Source of the DNA: Halorussus rarus
Lineage (GTDB): Archaea > Halobacteriota > Halobacteria > Halobacteriales > Haladaptataceae
Direction of reading: 5' to 3'
Assembly (NCBI RefSeq): GCF_003369835.1
Contig: NZ_QPMJ01000002.1
Coordinates: 1,426,001 to 1,490,000 of the forward strand
Length of the DNA stretch: 64,000 bases
A model generated the notes under the pieces. The model was given only the letters and a program-made list of their open reading frames with translations. It did no database searches and was not told where the DNA came from. The stretch's first letter is position 1. Each line of letters starts with the position of its first letter. Shown here one piece after another: positions 36,642-51,611 of the stretch. The position numbers and the translations under genes were made by a program.

Positions 36642-36822
36642 CTTTCTTCGTCTGTGTCTTTTGCCAGCACTCGCAATCGCTGTTGGAGCGGCGAGCGCGG
36701 GTACTGTTCCACGGTCAACGACGACGAGGGCCAACGACACTGCGGCGGAAAATGACGGCGGACATCGACCCGAGTCGTGCCGTCTTTGCCAAAGTACTTC
36801 AGCGGTGGGTCGTTCTAGAAAG

Positions 36823-36834
36823 ATACACGTGTAT
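36823..36834. promoter_or_regulatory. Perfect 12-bp palindrome before the repeat-protein/PiT operon
   Basis: ATACACGTGTAT is a perfect palindrome in the AT-rich patch about 57-68 bases before the ATG at 36891, followed by TTTTTTA. It overlaps the likely promoter and is a good candidate for an operator bound by a dimeric regulator. No regulator gene is adjacent. Confidence 0.45.
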
Positions 36835-36890
36835 TTTTTAGCACCGGATGGACAGCGGAGCGACCTCGTCCCCGAACGGTCTGGAGTGCG

Positions 36891-37586
36891 ATGAATCCGA
36901 ACCGCGTTGACTCGGTAGTCGACCTCGCGTACGGTCTGTTGATCGCGATCTCGGTCGGCCTGATCGTCGTTACCGACTACGCCATCGGGTTGGCGTTCGG
37001 TTTCGGCATCCTGCTCTCGTATCTCATCCACGTCGTCTGGAAGATGGCCCGGTTCGACCCGGACTGGATGACCTCGGTGGTCAAGGAGACGGTCGAGGAG
37101 ACAGTCAACGAGACGGTCGAGGAGACAGTCAACGAGACCGTCGGTGACACCGTCGAAGAGACGGTCGGCGAAACCGTCGAGGAGACGGTGACCGACACCG
37201 TCGAGAAAACGGTGGGCGAGACGGTCGAGGAGACCGTCGGTGACACCGTCGAGGAGAAGGTCAGCGATAGCGTCGAGAAAACCGTCGGCGAAACTGTCGA
37301 GGAGAAAGTCGGCGAAACCGTCGAGAAAACGGTGGGTGAGACGGTCGAAGAGAACGTCAGCGAAGCGGTCGAGGAGAAGGTCGGCGAAACCGTCGAAGAG
37401 ACCGTCGGTGACACCGTCGAGGAGACGGTCGGCGAAGTGGTCGAGGAGAAGGTCGGTGAGACCGTCGAGGAGACAGTCAACGAGACCGTCGAGGAGACGC
37501 TGGAGGAGCAGTTGGAGTCGGTAGACGAAGAGGACAGTGAAGACGAGGAGGACCGGAAAGACGCCACGGCGGGCGGGAACGACTGA
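36891..37586 (+). CDS. Membrane-anchored tetrapeptide-repeat protein coupled to PiT transporter
   Basis: The 231-residue protein has two hydrophobic helices (about 12-28 and 30-50). Residues 65-208 then consist of 36 consecutive tetrapeptides, mostly in octads of the GETVEETV type, with Val (Leu in the last two) at every fourth position. A 23-residue highly acidic tail ends it. The repeat is longer and more regular than a heptad coiled coil and should form a long acidic helix or stack on one membrane face. Its TGA overlaps the ATG of the first PiT transporter (TGATG), so the two are translated together. No known family was recognised. By position it may replace the PhoU-like (DUF47) partners of other PiT transporters; this is inference. 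Confidence 0.8.
   Translation: MNPNRVDSVVDLAYGLLIAISVGLIVVTDYAIGLAFGFGILLSYLIHVVWKMARFDPDWMTSVVKETVEETVNETVEETVNETVGDTVEETVGETVEETVTDTVEKTVGETVEETVGDTVEEKVSDSVEKTVGETVEEKVGETVEKTVGETVEENVSEAVEEKVGETVEETVGDTVEETVGEVVEEKVGETVEETVNETVEETLEEQLESVDEEDSEDEEDRKDATAGGND
37083..37514 (+). repeat. 24-base coding repeat array (36 tetrapeptides)
   Basis: The DNA is an imperfect tandem array with 12- and 24-base periods built from words such as GAGACGGTCGAGGAGACC. Differences between units are mostly synonymous or swap D/E, T/K and G/N/S, while the GTN valine codon is kept almost without exception. This suggests expansion by recombination followed by protein-level selection. Confidence 0.85.
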
Positions 37587-38764
37587 TGGTCGGCGTCTTG
37601 CTCGTCGTCGGCGTCCTCGTGGCGATGTTCGTCGCGTACAACATCGGCGGTTCGACGACGGGGCCGGCGTTCGGCCCAGCCGTGGGCGCCGACGCGATCT
37701 CGAAAACGGTCGCGGCGGCGCTGATGGGTCTGTTCTTCTTCGTCGGTGCCTGGACCATCGGTCGGAACGTCGTGACGAAGCTCGGCACGGAACTGGTCGT
37801 CGACACCGACGTGTTCACGCTCGAATCGTCCATCGTGGTGCTCTTCTTCATCGGGGTCGCGCTTTTCGTGGGCAACGTCTTCGGCGTGCCCGCCTCCACC
37901 TCGATGACGGCCGTCGGCGCCATCGCGGGGCTGGGACTCGCCGGTGACGCTCTCGATCTCGCCGTCATGGGCGAGATAGTCACCTGGTGGGTCGTCTCGC
38001 CGATCATCGGTTTCTGGGTGTCGTTGATCGTCGGTCGGTACTTCTACGCGCGACTCAACCGCATAGTCAAGATAGAGCGCAGCGAGGGCCCGCTGTTCGA
38101 CGTCGACCGCTCGGGCGCGGTACCGATACCCCGCCTCCACCGGACGACCAACCGCCGGGAGCTGGCCGGAACGGTCACCGTCGTCTCCATAGGGTGTCTG
38201 ATGGCGTTCAGCTCCGGGACCTCGAACATCGCCAACGCGGTGGCGCCGCTGGTCGGGAGCGGCGAGTTGGCGATGAACCCGGCGATACTCGTCGGATGCG
38301 TCGCCGTCGCGGTCGGCGCGTTCACGATCGCCCGCCGGACGCTGGAGACGATGGGCAGCGACATCACGGAGCTCCCGCTGACCGCGGCTATCGTCGTCGC
38401 TACCGTCAGTTCCACGCTCGTCATCTTCCTCTCGGTACTCGGCATCCCCGCGAGTTTCGTCATCATCGCAACGACGTCGATCATCGGACTGGGGTGGGGC
38501 CGGGCGACCCGGCCGATGACCATCCCCGAAACCGTCTCCCCCGAGGAGACGCCGCCGGTGTCGGTCGACGCGCTCGCCTCCGACGAGGAGGGCGAGGAGT
38601 TGCCGCCCATCGGCGAGGAGAGCTCCGAGGACGTCCCCAGTGCGGGGGCGCTGTTCGACCCCGCGACGACCGCCCGAGTCGTCCTGATGCAGAACGTCGT
38701 GCCCGCGATAGCGACGCTCGGGGCGTATCTCACCTTCCGGTTCGTCCCGATATTCGGATTCTGA
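37586..38764 (+). CDS. PiT-family inorganic phosphate transporter, copy 1
   Basis: The 392-residue protein has about ten membrane helices with the inverted repeat of the PiT family. The N-terminal signature reads YNIGGSTTGPAFGPAVG and the C-terminal one SSGTSNIANAVAPLVG, where most PiT proteins have GANDVANA. The Asp of that motif is replaced in both halves. A soluble acidic loop (about 310-362) precedes the last helix. The ATG overlaps the stop of the repeat-protein gene. Phosphate symport is inferred from the family; altered ion coupling or substrate is possible. Confidence 0.85.
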   Translation: MVGVLLVVGVLVAMFVAYNIGGSTTGPAFGPAVGADAISKTVAAALMGLFFFVGAWTIGRNVVTKLGTELVVDTDVFTLESSIVVLFFIGVALFVGNVFGVPASTSMTAVGAIAGLGLAGDALDLAVMGEIVTWWVVSPIIGFWVSLIVGRYFYARLNRIVKIERSEGPLFDVDRSGAVPIPRLHRTTNRRELAGTVTVVSIGCLMAFSSGTSNIANAVAPLVGSGELAMNPAILVGCVAVAVGAFTIARRTLETMGSDITELPLTAAIVVATVSSTLVIFLSVLGIPASFVIIATTSIIGLGWGRATRPMTIPETVSPEETPPVSVDALASDEEGEELPPIGEESSEDVPSAGALFDPATTARVVLMQNVVPAIATLGAYLTFRFVPIFGF

Positions 38765-38833
38765 ATCGCGTTCGTTTCCGGGCGTCCCCGACGTCGGTCG
38801 GGAACCCGTCGGGTCGTGCCACCGACCACCACG

Positions 38834-38840
38834 ATTTAAG
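38834..38840 (+). promoter_or_regulatory. TATA-like box for PiT copy 2
   Basis: ATTTAAG is centred 28 bases before the GTG at 38865, consistent with a leaderless transcript and separate control of this copy. Confidence 0.5.
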
Positions 38841-38864
38841 CGGTTCTCCGCCGTCGTATCGACC

Positions 38865-40004
38865 GTGAGCAGTGTCCTCCTCCTCGTCGGCGTCGGCGTC
38901 GCCATCTTCGTCGGCTTCAATATCGGCGGCTCGAACACGGGGGTCGCGTTCGGGCCGGCGGTCGGGAGCGGAGCGGTCTCGAAGGCGGGCGCGGCCGGCC
39001 TGATGAGCGTCTCGTTCCTGGTCGGCGGCTGGACGCTGGGCCGCCGGGTCGTGGACACGCTCGGGAAGGACCTCGTCGCGGGCGACCCCTTCACGATGGA
39101 GGTGAGCATCGCCGTCCTGCTGTTCATCGGCCTGGCGCTGTTCGCCGGCAACGTCTTCGGCGTCCCGGCCTCGACCTCGATGACCGCGGTCGGCGCCATC
39201 GTGGGGCTGGGGCTGGCCACCGGTCGCCTCAGGGTCGATACGGTCCTCGAGATCGTCGGTTGGTGGCTGCTCGCGCCGGTTATCGGCTTCTGGGTCAGCG
39301 CCGTGGTCGGCCGGTACCGGTACGACCGGCTCGCCGAGGCCATCGCCATCGACCGGACCGAGGGCCCCCTCGTGACGCTCGGCGGAGACGGCGCCGTGCC
39401 GCGCCCGGAACTGGGTCCGAACACGACGCGCCGGGAGTTCATCGGCACGATTCTCGTCGTGGTCATCGGCTGTTACATGGCGTTCTCGGCGGGGACGAGC
39501 AACGTGGCGAACGCGGTCGCGCCGCTGGTCGGCAACGGCGCCGTCTCGATGACGGAGGGCGTGCTGCTGGCGTCCGGGGCCACCGCGCTGGGCGCGTTCA
39601 CCATCGCCCGGCGGACCCTCGACACCGTCGGCAACGACCTCACGGAGCTCCCGCTGGTCGCGGCCATCGTGGTCGCGGTCGTGAGCTCGTCCATCGTGAC
39701 GGTGCTGTCCGCGCTGAGCGTTCCCGCGAGCTTCGTCGTCATCGCCACCATGAGCGTGGTCGGCCTCGGCTGGGGTCGCGCCACGGTGGCCGACGCGGTC
39801 CCCGAAACGCCGGCGGGGCCGGCGTCGGGCGGCGGTCCGTTCGAGGACGGCGACCGCCCGACCGCCGCCGCGGACGGGGCGCCCCCGTCGGCGGCCGAAC
39901 TCTACCAGCCGGCGACCACCGCGCGGGTCGTCCTGCTCCAGAATCTCGTGCCCGCGGTGGCGACGGTCGCGGCGTACCTGGTGTTCCGATACGCGCCGCT
40001 GTGA
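38865..40004 (+). CDS. PiT-family inorganic phosphate transporter, copy 2
   Basis: The 379-residue paralog starts at a GTG 28 bases from its own TATA-like box. Signatures read FNIGGSNTGVAFGPAVG and SAGTSNVANAVAPLVG, again without the usual motif Asp. The helices FGVPASTSMTAVGAI and GAFTIARRTLDTVGNDL are almost identical to copies 1 and 3. The acidic cytoplasmic loop (about 305-350) is the least conserved part. Independent promoters for the three copies suggest different expression conditions. Confidence 0.85.
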   Translation: MSSVLLLVGVGVAIFVGFNIGGSNTGVAFGPAVGSGAVSKAGAAGLMSVSFLVGGWTLGRRVVDTLGKDLVAGDPFTMEVSIAVLLFIGLALFAGNVFGVPASTSMTAVGAIVGLGLATGRLRVDTVLEIVGWWLLAPVIGFWVSAVVGRYRYDRLAEAIAIDRTEGPLVTLGGDGAVPRPELGPNTTRREFIGTILVVVIGCYMAFSAGTSNVANAVAPLVGNGAVSMTEGVLLASGATALGAFTIARRTLDTVGNDLTELPLVAAIVVAVVSSSIVTVLSALSVPASFVVIATMSVVGLGWGRATVADAVPETPAGPASGGGPFEDGDRPTAAADGAPPSAAELYQPATTARVVLLQNLVPAVATVAAYLVFRYAPL

Positions 40005-40110
40005 CGCCGCCGAAATCGGGGCGGCCGACTGCCGTCTCGGAGTCTCGTTGACCGACTGCGACCCCGGCTCGACCCCGAGAGCGGCCACAGCCGGGTCGCT
40101 GAACCGTTAT

Positions 40111-40118
40111 GATTTAAC
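40111..40118 (+). promoter_or_regulatory. TATA-like box for PiT copy 3
   Basis: GATTTAAC is centred about 28 bases before the GTG at 40142, the same arrangement as for copy 2. Confidence 0.5.
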
Positions 40119-40141
40119 GGCCGTCGTGCGTTCGTACGGGT

Positions 40142-41347
40142 GTGATCAGCGTACTCCTCCTCGTCGGTCTCGCCGTCGCCGTCTTCGTCGGCTTCAACAT
40201 CGGTGGTTCCTCGACAGGGGTCGCGTTCGGTCCCGCGGTCGGCAGCGGCGTGATCTCGAAGCTGGGTGCGGCGGCGCTGATGGCGAGCTTCGCGCTGCTG
40301 GGCGGCTGGACGGTCGGCCGGAACGTCGTCGAGACGATGGGCGGCGAGATCGTCCCCTCGGCGCTGTTCACCCTCCCCGCGAGCGTCGGGGTGCTGTTCT
40401 TCGTCGGACTGGCGCTGCTGGTCTCGAACCTGTTCGGGGTGCCGGCGTCGACTTCGATGACCGCCGTGGGCGCCATCGCGGGCCTCGGCGTCGCGGCCGG
40501 GAACATCGATTGGGGCGTGATGGGCCAGATCGTCTCGTGGTGGCTGGTCGCGCCCATCGTCGCGTTCTGGGTCTGCGCGGTCATCGGGCGGTACCTCTAC
40601 CCCTACCTCGACGTCTGGTTCCGCATCGACCAGTCGGAGGGGCCGCTGTTCGAGTACGGCCGCGTGGCGTCGGTCCCCGTCCCGGTCCCGGCGGCGAACA
40701 CGAACCGCCGCGAACTGATAAGCAGCGTCCTCGTCGTCGTCATCGGCTGTTACATGGCGTTCTCGGCGGGCGCGAGCAACGTCGCCAACGCGGTGGCGCC
40801 GCTGGTCGGCAGCGGGGCCATCGAGATCAATCAGGGCATCCTGCTCGCCGCGGGCGCCATCGCGGTCGGCGCGTTCACCATCGCCCGGCGGACCCTCGAC
40901 ACCGTCGGCAACGACCTCACCGACCTCCCGCTTCTGGCCGCGCTCATCGTGGAGGTGGTGTCGGCGTCGCTCATCACGTTCCTGTCGTACCTCGGCATCC
41001 CGGCCAGCCTCGCGGTCAGCGCGACGATGTGCATCATCGGGCTGGGGTGGGGCCGGGCGACCCGCGCGGTCAGGGTCCGCGACGCCGCGGCCGCCGCGGT
41101 CCGCGGCGAGGGCGAGGAGTCCGACCGGGCCGCCGAGGGCGAGTCGAAGATGTCGGTCGACGCGCTCACCGCCGAACCCGACGACGAGGTCCGGAAGATC
41201 GGCGAGGAGAACCCCGCCGAACTCCAGACCAAGGACCTGTTCGACCCGGCCTCGACCGGGCGGGTCATCATGCTCTGGATCCTGACCCCGAGCATCTCGG
41301 CGGTGGCGTCGTTCCTGCTGTTCGAGTTCTTCCCGCTGTACCGGTGA
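40142..41347 (+). CDS. PiT-family inorganic phosphate transporter, copy 3
   Basis: The 401-residue paralog also starts at GTG. Signatures read FNIGGSSTGVAFGPAVG and SAGASNVANAVAPLVG. Compared with copies 1 and 2 the loop near 160-190 and the long acidic loop (about 315-380, with MSVDALTAEPDDEV) differ. The shared phrase SVDALxxE in copies 1 and 3 suggests these two are closest, or that the loop has a common binding role. It is the last of three tandem copies that fill 37586-41347. Confidence 0.85.
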   Translation: MISVLLLVGLAVAVFVGFNIGGSSTGVAFGPAVGSGVISKLGAAALMASFALLGGWTVGRNVVETMGGEIVPSALFTLPASVGVLFFVGLALLVSNLFGVPASTSMTAVGAIAGLGVAAGNIDWGVMGQIVSWWLVAPIVAFWVCAVIGRYLYPYLDVWFRIDQSEGPLFEYGRVASVPVPVPAANTNRRELISSVLVVVIGCYMAFSAGASNVANAVAPLVGSGAIEINQGILLAAGAIAVGAFTIARRTLDTVGNDLTDLPLLAALIVEVVSASLITFLSYLGIPASLAVSATMCIIGLGWGRATRAVRVRDAAAAAVRGEGEESDRAAEGESKMSVDALTAEPDDEVRKIGEENPAELQTKDLFDPASTGRVIMLWILTPSISAVASFLLFEFFPLYR

Positions 41348-43752: not shown

Positions 43753-43762
43753 GTCACCGATA

Positions 43763-43827
43763 GGAGCGCTGGCCGAGCGAGTGATGGGAGCGCTGGCCGA
43801 GCGAGTGATGGGAGCGCTGGCCGAGCG
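43763..43827. repeat. 24-bp tandem repeat, 2.7 copies
   Basis: The unit GGAGCGCTGGCCGAGCGAGTGATG occupies 43763-43786 and 43787-43810, followed by a 17-base partial copy at 43811-43827. It starts about ten bases after the preceding stop codon, between that gene and the prepilin peptidase promoter, and does not encode a protein with a start. Confidence 0.85.
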
Positions 43828-49505: not shown

Positions 49506-51611
49506 ATGGAAACGGTTCGCGCGAGCGACTACCGCGACGTCGCGCAGGTCGAGGAGCCGCGAGTCTCGCCCGACGGCGAGCGGGTGGCGTTCGTCCGCAA
49601 GGTGCCCGAGAGCGACGAGGAGTACGAGGCGACGGTCTACGTCGTCCCGGTGGGCGGCGACGAGCCCCGACAGTTCACCGTGAGCGAGGGCGTCGACAGC
49701 CAGCCCCGGTGGAGTCCGAGCGGCGACCGCCTGGCGTTCGTCAGCACCCGCGGCGCCGACGACGACCGACCCCAGCTGTGGGTCATGCCGACCGACGGCG
49801 GGGAGGCCCGGCGGGTGACCGACGTGGTCGGCGGCGTCTCGACCATCTCGTGGTCGCCCGACGGGAGCCGGATCGCGTTCGTCCAGCAGGCCACCGAGGC
49901 GGACCGCGAGGAGGACCGGGACCTCGGCCTCGACGGCGAGGAGTACGAGCCCGAGGCGCCCGACCCCCGCGTCGTCGACCGGCTGGTCTACCGGGCGGGC
50001 GAGCGGTACTTCGACGGCCGACGTTCGCACGTCTACGTCGTCGACCTCGGGAGCGAGGAAGACGATATCTCGCGACTCACCGACGGCGACTACGACCACC
50101 TCGAACCCGAGTGGGCCGACGAGTCGACGCTGTACTACGGCGCGCGCCGGACCGGCGACCCCGACGACAACATCGTCATCGACGTGGTCGAGTACGACCT
50201 CGACGCCGACGAGGAGACCGGCACGGTCGTCCAGACCACCGGGTGGACGCCGATGCTCGCGGCCGCGGGCGACGGGCGACTCGCCTACGCCTACACGCCC
50301 GAGGAGAACGCGACGCTTCGCCAGACCGAGATCAAGGTGCTCGACCCCGAGACCGGCGACGTGACGACGCCGACTGAGCCGCTGAACCGGACCCTCTCGG
50401 TGGACATGTCGGTCCAGTGGGGACCGAACGAGGAGGACGTCTACTTCCTGACGCCCGACGAGGGCGAGGTCGCGGTCTGGCGGGCGCCGGGCGACGCGAG
50501 CGCCGACCCCGAGCGCGTGGTCGCGGACGGGACGGTCGAGGACGCCGGCGTCGGCCCCGACAAGCTGGCGTTCGTCCGGTCGGAGTGGGACCACCCCGGC
50601 GACGTGTTCGTCTCGACGCTCGGCGGCGCGGAGAGCCGGCGGCTCACCAGGGTCAACCGCGACTACCTCGACGACCGCGCGGTCGCCCAGCCCGAGGAGA
50701 TACGGTTCGAGAACGGAGCGGGCGACGAGATCCAGGGCTGGGTGCTGACGCCGCCCGATTTCGACCCCGACGAGACGTACCCGCTCGCGGTCGAGATCCA
50801 CGGCGGCCCCCACGCGATGTGGTCGACCAGCGGGACGATGTGGCACGAGTTCCAGTTGCTCGCCGCACGGGGCTACGTCGTCTTCTGGTCGAACCCGCGA
50901 GGGTCGACCGGCTACGGCGAGGAGTTCATGGCGGCGCTCGGCGGCGGACGGTGGGGCCCGGTCGCCTACGAGGACATCATGGCCGGCGTCGACGAGGTGG
51001 CGAGCCGCGAGTACGTCGACGAGGACGACCTGTTCGTCACGGGCGGGAGCTACGGCGGCTACATGACGACCTGGATCGTCGGCCACACCGACCGGTTCGC
51101 GGGCGCGGTCAGCCAGCGCGGCGTCTACGAACTCAACAGCTTCTACGGGTCGACCGACGCGTTCAAGCTCATCGAGTGGGACTTCGACACCACCCCGTCG
51201 GAGGACGCCGCGTTCCTCTGGGAGCAGTCGCCGGCGGCCTACGCCGACGCGGTCGACACCCCGACGCTGCTGCTGCACGCCGACGACGACTACCGCGTGC
51301 CGGTGAACAACGGCGAGATGCTCTACCTGCTGTACAAGAAGAACGGCGTCGAGACGCGGCTGGTGCGGTACCCCCGCGAGGGCCACGAGCTCTCGCGGAG
51401 CGGCGAGCCCGGCCACGTCGTCGACCGGCTCGAGCGCATCGTCCGGTGGTTCGACGGCTACTCGGACCACCACGACGCCCCGAAAGCGCTGGAGCGCGGC
51501 GACGAGGGGCTGTCGGCGAGCGAGGAAGACGAGGGGGCCGAGAGCGGAGACGAAAGCGAGGAGGACGAGAGCGAGGAAGAAAGCGGGGACGCTGCGGCGG
51601 ACGGCGAGTAG
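49506..51611 (+). CDS. S9 family acylaminoacyl/dipeptidyl peptidase
   Basis: The 701-residue protein has an N-terminal beta-propeller of WD40-like (PD40) blades (to about 400; SPDGERVAFVRKV, SPSGDRLAFVS, SPDGSRIAFVQ) and a C-terminal alpha/beta hydrolase. The nucleophile is the Ser in TGGSYGGYMT near 518, the Asp is in HADDDYRVP and the His in REGHELSRSG. The family removes acylated or dipeptide N-termini in the cytoplasm. A 35-residue acidic Glu/Ser/Asp tail follows the fold and is probably a halophilic extension. Confidence 0.93.
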   Translation: METVRASDYRDVAQVEEPRVSPDGERVAFVRKVPESDEEYEATVYVVPVGGDEPRQFTVSEGVDSQPRWSPSGDRLAFVSTRGADDDRPQLWVMPTDGGEARRVTDVVGGVSTISWSPDGSRIAFVQQATEADREEDRDLGLDGEEYEPEAPDPRVVDRLVYRAGERYFDGRRSHVYVVDLGSEEDDISRLTDGDYDHLEPEWADESTLYYGARRTGDPDDNIVIDVVEYDLDADEETGTVVQTTGWTPMLAAAGDGRLAYAYTPEENATLRQTEIKVLDPETGDVTTPTEPLNRTLSVDMSVQWGPNEEDVYFLTPDEGEVAVWRAPGDASADPERVVADGTVEDAGVGPDKLAFVRSEWDHPGDVFVSTLGGAESRRLTRVNRDYLDDRAVAQPEEIRFENGAGDEIQGWVLTPPDFDPDETYPLAVEIHGGPHAMWSTSGTMWHEFQLLAARGYVVFWSNPRGSTGYGEEFMAALGGGRWGPVAYEDIMAGVDEVASREYVDEDDLFVTGGSYGGYMTTWIVGHTDRFAGAVSQRGVYELNSFYGSTDAFKLIEWDFDTTPSEDAAFLWEQSPAAYADAVDTPTLLLHADDDYRVPVNNGEMLYLLYKKNGVETRLVRYPREGHELSRSGEPGHVVDRLERIVRWFDGYSDHHDAPKALERGDEGLSASEEDEGAESGDESEEDESEEESGDAAADGE

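Follow-up and report, generated by a model that had tools for sequence, protein, structure and literature searches.

A haloarchaeal membrane hairpin protein with a tetrapeptide-repeat tail is genetically linked to a CysP-like permease of the PiT family

Transporters of the PiT family can in bacteria be encoded next to a partner protein. In PitA-PitR pairs, a PiT-family gene lies adjacent to a gene for a PhoU-like protein (DUF47/PhoU_div), and in actinobacteria a small, uncharacterised membrane protein of the SCO1846 type is encoded beside pitA (PMC13170248). Within the family, phosphate transport was reported to require the aspartates of the GANDVANA signature, where CysP has G and N instead (PMC5840216). 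CysP, a sulfate permease, is known from Bacillus subtilis (TCDB 2.A.20.4.1; NF053884). Here, we analysed a locus within a high-GC, 64,000-nucleotide stretch of Halorussus rarus chromosomal DNA (the window), in which a PiT-family gene, PiT1, likewise has an adjacent partner gene. This partner, however, is not PhoU-like but a membrane hairpin protein with an acidic repeat tail. By description it resembles the SCO1846-type protein, which is singled out for its position alone; the accessible part of that source does not mention a tetrad tail. PiT1 itself aligns to both halves of the TmPiT structure 6L85 (E 3.7e-11), yet in neither inverted repeat are the signature residues the same. We find that the hairpin family is real, conserved and undescribed, and that in Halobacteria it is the partner of a CysP-like permease. 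This haloarchaeal membrane family is widespread but has no name, and its genetic link to one subtype of PiT-family permeases is strong.

The two-gene cassette and its linkage

The repeat gene is the open reading frame at 36891-37586 on the forward strand, on which all features of the locus described here lie unless stated otherwise. Its translation of 231 residues comprises an N-terminal hairpin (residues 1-62, 36891..37076), which forms a conserved domain, followed by 36 tetrapeptides of the type V-x-E/D-T/K (37080..37511) and an acidic C-terminal end (LESVDEEDSEDEED..., 37512..37583). The stop codon overlaps the start of PiT1 (37586..38764) in the sequence TGATG (37584..37588), just as the earlier note had described. 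A stop/start overlap of 1 or 4 bases recurs in 24 of 28 distinct co-directional loci, and the TGATG may couple the translation of both genes.

PiT1 had been taken as the first of three PiT transporters. The three open reading frames after the repeat gene indeed encode PF01384 proteins, with PiT2 at 38865..40004 and PiT3 at 40142..41347, but their arrangement in one row was unseen in the congeners examined. There, the order serA, PiT2, (PiT3,) ferredoxin is found around an orthologous ferredoxin gene in six genomes (G002, G005, G006, G009, G010 and G011), and none of these six has a repeat gene or PiT1 between serA and PiT2. The repeat gene and PiT1 occur together at another place in the congeners G006, G009, G011 and G001. 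DNA homology to these distant pairs extends from window position 36779/36781 to 38764, the PiT1 stop codon, and homology to the serA locus of the congeners stops at about 36673 and resumes at 38814-38864. By these boundaries, a unit of about 2 kb with its own promoter, the repeat gene and PiT1 now sits inside an older serA-PiT2-PiT3-ferredoxin locus, to which the CysP-like paralogues PiT2 and PiT3 belong. The real module is thus the repeat gene plus PiT1, since the pair exists elsewhere in congeners and the surrounding locus exists without it. Most simply, the pair would have been gained at the window locus, because the empty arrangement is common to six congeners; this direction was judged from congener gene order. 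An extra PiT3-like gene in the corresponding locus of G010 (L092 7719-10246) indicates that this locus gains and loses PiT paralogues.

The cassette promoter region (36779..36890) is homologous to the region upstream of the repeat gene in those congeners that carry the pair elsewhere. It contains the TATA-like TTTGCCAAAGTACTT (36785-36799), which is conserved in an upstream alignment across families, and the palindrome ATACACGTGTAT (36823-36834), which is perfect in the window and the sole match there at two or fewer mismatches. In several families, TTTGCCAAAGTACTT upstream of overlapping pairs is followed about 30 bases on by a partly palindromic, TACRYGTGTA-like element. Based on this conservation, TTTGCCAAAGTACTT would serve as a TATA-like box and ATACACGTGTAT as a putative operator near the transcription start.

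Is the hairpin protein a common element of haloarchaeal genomes? Searching with the 61-residue hairpin, we found the family in 117 of 194 genomes sampled from the order, and in a phylum-wide sample of 197 genomes all 25 positives came from the same order. As far as sampled, the unnamed family is confined to Halobacteria. We took these counts from the hairpin search because a class-wide profile search (209 of 292 genomes positive) mixes in weaker, tail-only matches. An alignment of 43 members shows 19 invariant columns in the hairpin, among them P3, D7, D11, Y14, G15, A35, F36, G37 and G39 as well as S43, H47, W50, K51, M52, R54, D56, W59 and M60. The hairpin alone has no match in Pfam, and no family in Pfam or NCBIfam matches the entire protein above its curated cut-off. 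The tail hits from Pfam, NCBIfam and PHROG (Bflower_2, EcsC, GvpQ, ser_rich and others), all below the curated cut-off where one exists, were rejected as low-complexity similarity in the repeat, and a PDB sequence search returned low-complexity hits only, e.g. L17 and LRRC8A. Foldseek searches with AlphaFold2 models of the window protein and of a short member gave nothing significant, and literature searches found no description of the hairpin or tetrad family. The other tail-like matches from the same genome, L003 (PAS/histidine-kinase-like) and L004 (aldehyde-dehydrogenase-like), lack a tetrad array and were set aside.

The PiT1-type gene is the only widely shared neighbour in the repeat-gene loci compared. 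At least 78 of 127 repeat-gene copies in the 194 genomes adjoin such a gene among the matches listed, with the repeat gene upstream and co-directional in 45 cases, divergent in 32 and in another order in one, whereas random placement would yield about 0.2 adjacent copies if relatedness is ignored. A close PiT1 homologue (E up to 4e-133) is present in 112 of 117 repeat-positive genomes versus 16 of 77 repeat-negative ones among the matches listed (compared by a Fisher test that treats genomes as independent of phylogeny). Within the genus of the window, the numbers are 6 of 6 versus 0 of 11, again among the matches listed. The association of the repeat gene with PiT1 is thus well supported. The earlier note had proposed a coupling of the two and had named a repeat protein found mostly away from PiT genes as the contrary outcome; the proposal holds, with at least 61% of copies adjacent, 39% standing alone among the matches listed, and the pair kept together at different loci.

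These unlinked copies, 49 of 127, are the weakest point of a partnership with PiT1 and speak for an alternative in which the hairpin protein would be a general membrane organiser, engaged in membrane bending or in chromosome or envelope anchoring, and the adjacency to PiT1 would stem from horizontal transfer of a convenient pair instead of a physical partnership. They share no consistent other neighbour, and most repeat loci of Halorubrum, Natrinema and Halovenus are unlinked and have unrelated neighbours. Since they are not near a listed PiT1-type gene, some family members act apart from the permease, and a strict partnership with PiT does not extend to all copies of the protein. In addition, near-identical linked pairs in distant families suggest a transfer of the pair as a unit. 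Against this alternative stand the conserved stop/start overlap and the recurrence of the linked state in several separate branches and different gene orders. Indeed, linked pairs come in three arrangements, namely overlapping, co-directional with a gap, and divergent, and the labels co-directional, divergent and none require at least seven changes on a tree of the 62-residue hairpin, which is poorly resolved and was used only to count these changes. Each of the 32 divergent copies would have a promoter of its own. Taken together, we consider a general organiser without partnership unlikely and prefer the reading of the hairpin protein as a partner of PiT1.

The PiT proteins and their likely cargo

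All three PiT proteins belong to the PiT family by their matches to PF01384 (PHO4), with 137.5, 127.7 and 160.3 bits for PiT1, PiT2 and PiT3 at a cut-off of 33.7 (E 1e-37 to 1e-47). Their best curated match is the CysP sulfate-permease model NF053884 (E 4e-48 to 1e-51; 7e-50 for PiT1), and the PitA model gives an E of 0.002 or no match. As the NF053884 scores of 169.9, 164.2 and 175.7 bits, i.e. 164-176, stay below the equivalog cut-off of 400, we call PiT1-3 CysP-like and not CysP. PiT1 and its orthologues carry GGSTTGPA and GTSNIANA where GANDVANA is expected. Both signature aspartates, which mark PiT phosphate transporters, are replaced in PiT1-3; CysP has lost the same aspartates, with the same change of D to N in the second motif, but the first motif of PiT1-3, GGSTTGPA, differs. 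The GANDVANA motif occurs in none of the six PiT proteins of the genome. Two further, divergent PF01384 proteins are encoded outside the window, L082 about 480 bases past its end (G000:C2:1490477) and L084 at G000:C4:33083; they show the motifs GAGSSGST... and GGSQVGLA and score weakly to both the CysP and the PitA model.

Given the replaced signature aspartates and the best match to the CysP model, sulfate or another oxyanion is the more likely cargo than phosphate. The genome encodes a PAPS_reduct homologue, and next to the cassette no sulfur-assimilation gene was recognised. PiT proteins that are easily read as phosphate transporters would thus probably carry another anion.

The earlier note had followed the phosphate reading and had placed the acidic repeat in the position usually held by a DUF47 regulator. 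In full, this alternative holds that the cassette is a phosphate transporter unit, in which the acidic repeat would sense or buffer phosphate in place of a DUF47/PhoU-like regulator (PitR). The PF01384 matches fit it, and so do the regulators known beside pitA in bacteria (PMC13170248). A search of the whole genome for DUF47/PhoU_div (PF01865) at E up to 0.001 gave no match, while control genomes were positive, and this result can be read in two ways: the regulatory role could have fallen to another protein, but in a genome without any DUF47 protein the repeat protein is not a demonstrated stand-in for one. The repeat protein has no PhoU-like match in Pfam or NCBIfam. The loss in PiT1-3 of both aspartates reported as essential for phosphate transport (PMC5840216) and the better match to a sulfate permease speak against phosphate, and neither part of the earlier proposal is supported. 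We regard a phosphate unit with a substitute regulator as quite unlikely and continue with a CysP-like permease and its hairpin partner.

The tetrad tail

The hydrophobic residues (V/L/I/M) of the tail lie at positions 64, 68, 72 and so on up to 208, with a spacing of 4 and no break. Residues 64-207 form 36 tetrads starting at V64 (35 with V, one with L), to which L208 is added, and the tetrads alternate as octads of the pattern V-E-E-T/K-V-G/N/S-E/D-T. When the tail was shuffled 5000 times, the longest spacing-4 run had a mean of 3.2 and a maximum of 8. AlphaFold2 predicts the hairpin helices at residues 3-27 and 30-54 (pLDDT about 80). The earlier description of a two-helix protein with 36 tetrapeptides and Val or Leu at every fourth position is thus confirmed by translation, spacing and shuffles, and agrees with the predicted hairpin.

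Of about 2610 successive hydrophobic spacings in the whole family, 2395 have a value of exactly 4. V occupies position 1 in 92% of 1938 tetrads and the other positions differ by lineage, and the spacing remains strict even in lineages with different consensus units. Tail length ranges from about 4 to 58 tetrads, and PiT1-linked orthologues have 21-55, one of them only six. This wide variation even among linked orthologues counts against a role as a precise ruler. Short members carry a helix with hydrophobic spacings of 3-4 and a cap such as ERIDRRPREDEVEELI in place of the array; some long members retain the cap distally, behind the array, and in others the array begins after the cap. From these layouts, the tetrad array probably represents an insert of expandable length that separates the membrane hairpin from a short helical terminus.

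Could the array simply be selectively neutral, created from a short helical tail by replication slippage and without a function of its own? The range in unit number would be expected in this case, and TRF detects 24-base units in the repeat gene. However, the octads of the window gene differ mostly at silent sites (pN/pS 0.35), so that the pattern is maintained in the protein and is more than recent slippage, and neither the prevalence of V at position 1 beside lineage-variable other positions nor the strict spacing despite differing consensus units fits neutrality. Neutral slippage is therefore very doubtful as an explanation. That the open reading frame is a false call from the high-GC codon pattern, for which an antisense frame of 829 residues over the same region (36977-39466, strand -, spanning the repeat gene and PiT1 into PiT2) could be cited, is refuted by conservation, namely the same start, hairpin and frame in homologues of 117 of 194 genomes and the invariant hairpin residues; we judge the antisense frame to be a by-product of the repeat and high-GC codon use.

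Which structure does such a tail adopt? AlphaFold2 models long helices at residues 57-127 and 136-212 with low confidence (pLDDT about 45-75), and a helix at 57-95 of a short member with better confidence. The beta-branched residues Val and Thr, together with the prevalence of G, N, S or T as second residue in every other window tetrad, make a plain helix not assured. On an alpha helix, the hydrophobic stripe would turn by about 40 degrees per tetrad. Right-handed coiled coils, i.e. hendecads, pentadecads and the YadA 19/5 stalk, are also long helices of repetitive sequence whose hydrophobic spacing exceeds 3.63 residues per turn, but they top out at 3.8, whereas the tail has exactly 4.0 over 36 units. 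Coiled-coil periodicity was reported to range from about 3.33 to 3.9 residues per turn, with 3.8 as the highest known and 4.0 outside the accessible range (PMC4786415), and repeated 4+4+4 contacts were not found in dimeric coiled coils (PMC9369452). The statement that a period of four does not match a heptad coiled coil agrees with this range. The tail might be one helix around which the stripe spirals, a bundle with a strong right-handed twist, or yet another fold, and it lends itself to testing how far helical periodicity can extend. We further speculate, while thinking it rather improbable, that the tail forms a new regular structure, e.g. a right-handed superhelix of 4.0 residues per turn found in molar KCl only, and that it gathers CysP-like permeases in ordered clusters. 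If true, this would be a salt-dependent transporter scaffold.

A possible accessory subunit

For the function of the cassette, we propose, at about even chances, that this two-gene unit of Halobacteria combines the CysP-like PiT1 with a dedicated membrane partner, whose hairpin is docked on the permease and whose acidic tail has a scaffolding or tuning role. Judging from R5 ahead of the first helix and K51 and R54 past the second, both termini of the partner would be cytosolic. The hairpin would dock on the permease within the membrane, with the invariant residues D7, D11, H47, K51, R54 and D56. More tentatively, the acidic and probably mostly helical tail might act as an expandable cytosolic scaffold, which would cluster permeases or tune their activity in molar KCl, and it might substitute for or prolong the short, RRPR-capped heptad-like helix of the short members.

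Two proteins, L028 and L032, represent a subfamily that is less closely related; its hairpin is similar (FYIDLIYG..., WEKM), and its tail is acidic, V-rich and probably helical. They share only the outline of the layout with the hairpin family, and neither was seen adjoining a PiT gene. Elsewhere in the window, two other tandem repeats were observed. A nearly perfect 24-base repeat (GATGGGAGCGCTGGCCGAGCGAGT; 2.9 copies, 97% identity) at 43759-43827 sits between a methyltransferase/small open reading frame and a gene for an A24 peptidase, and a 27-base repeat (CGAGGAGGACGAGAGCGAAGAAGAAAG) at 51530-51589 possibly encodes an acidic stretch.
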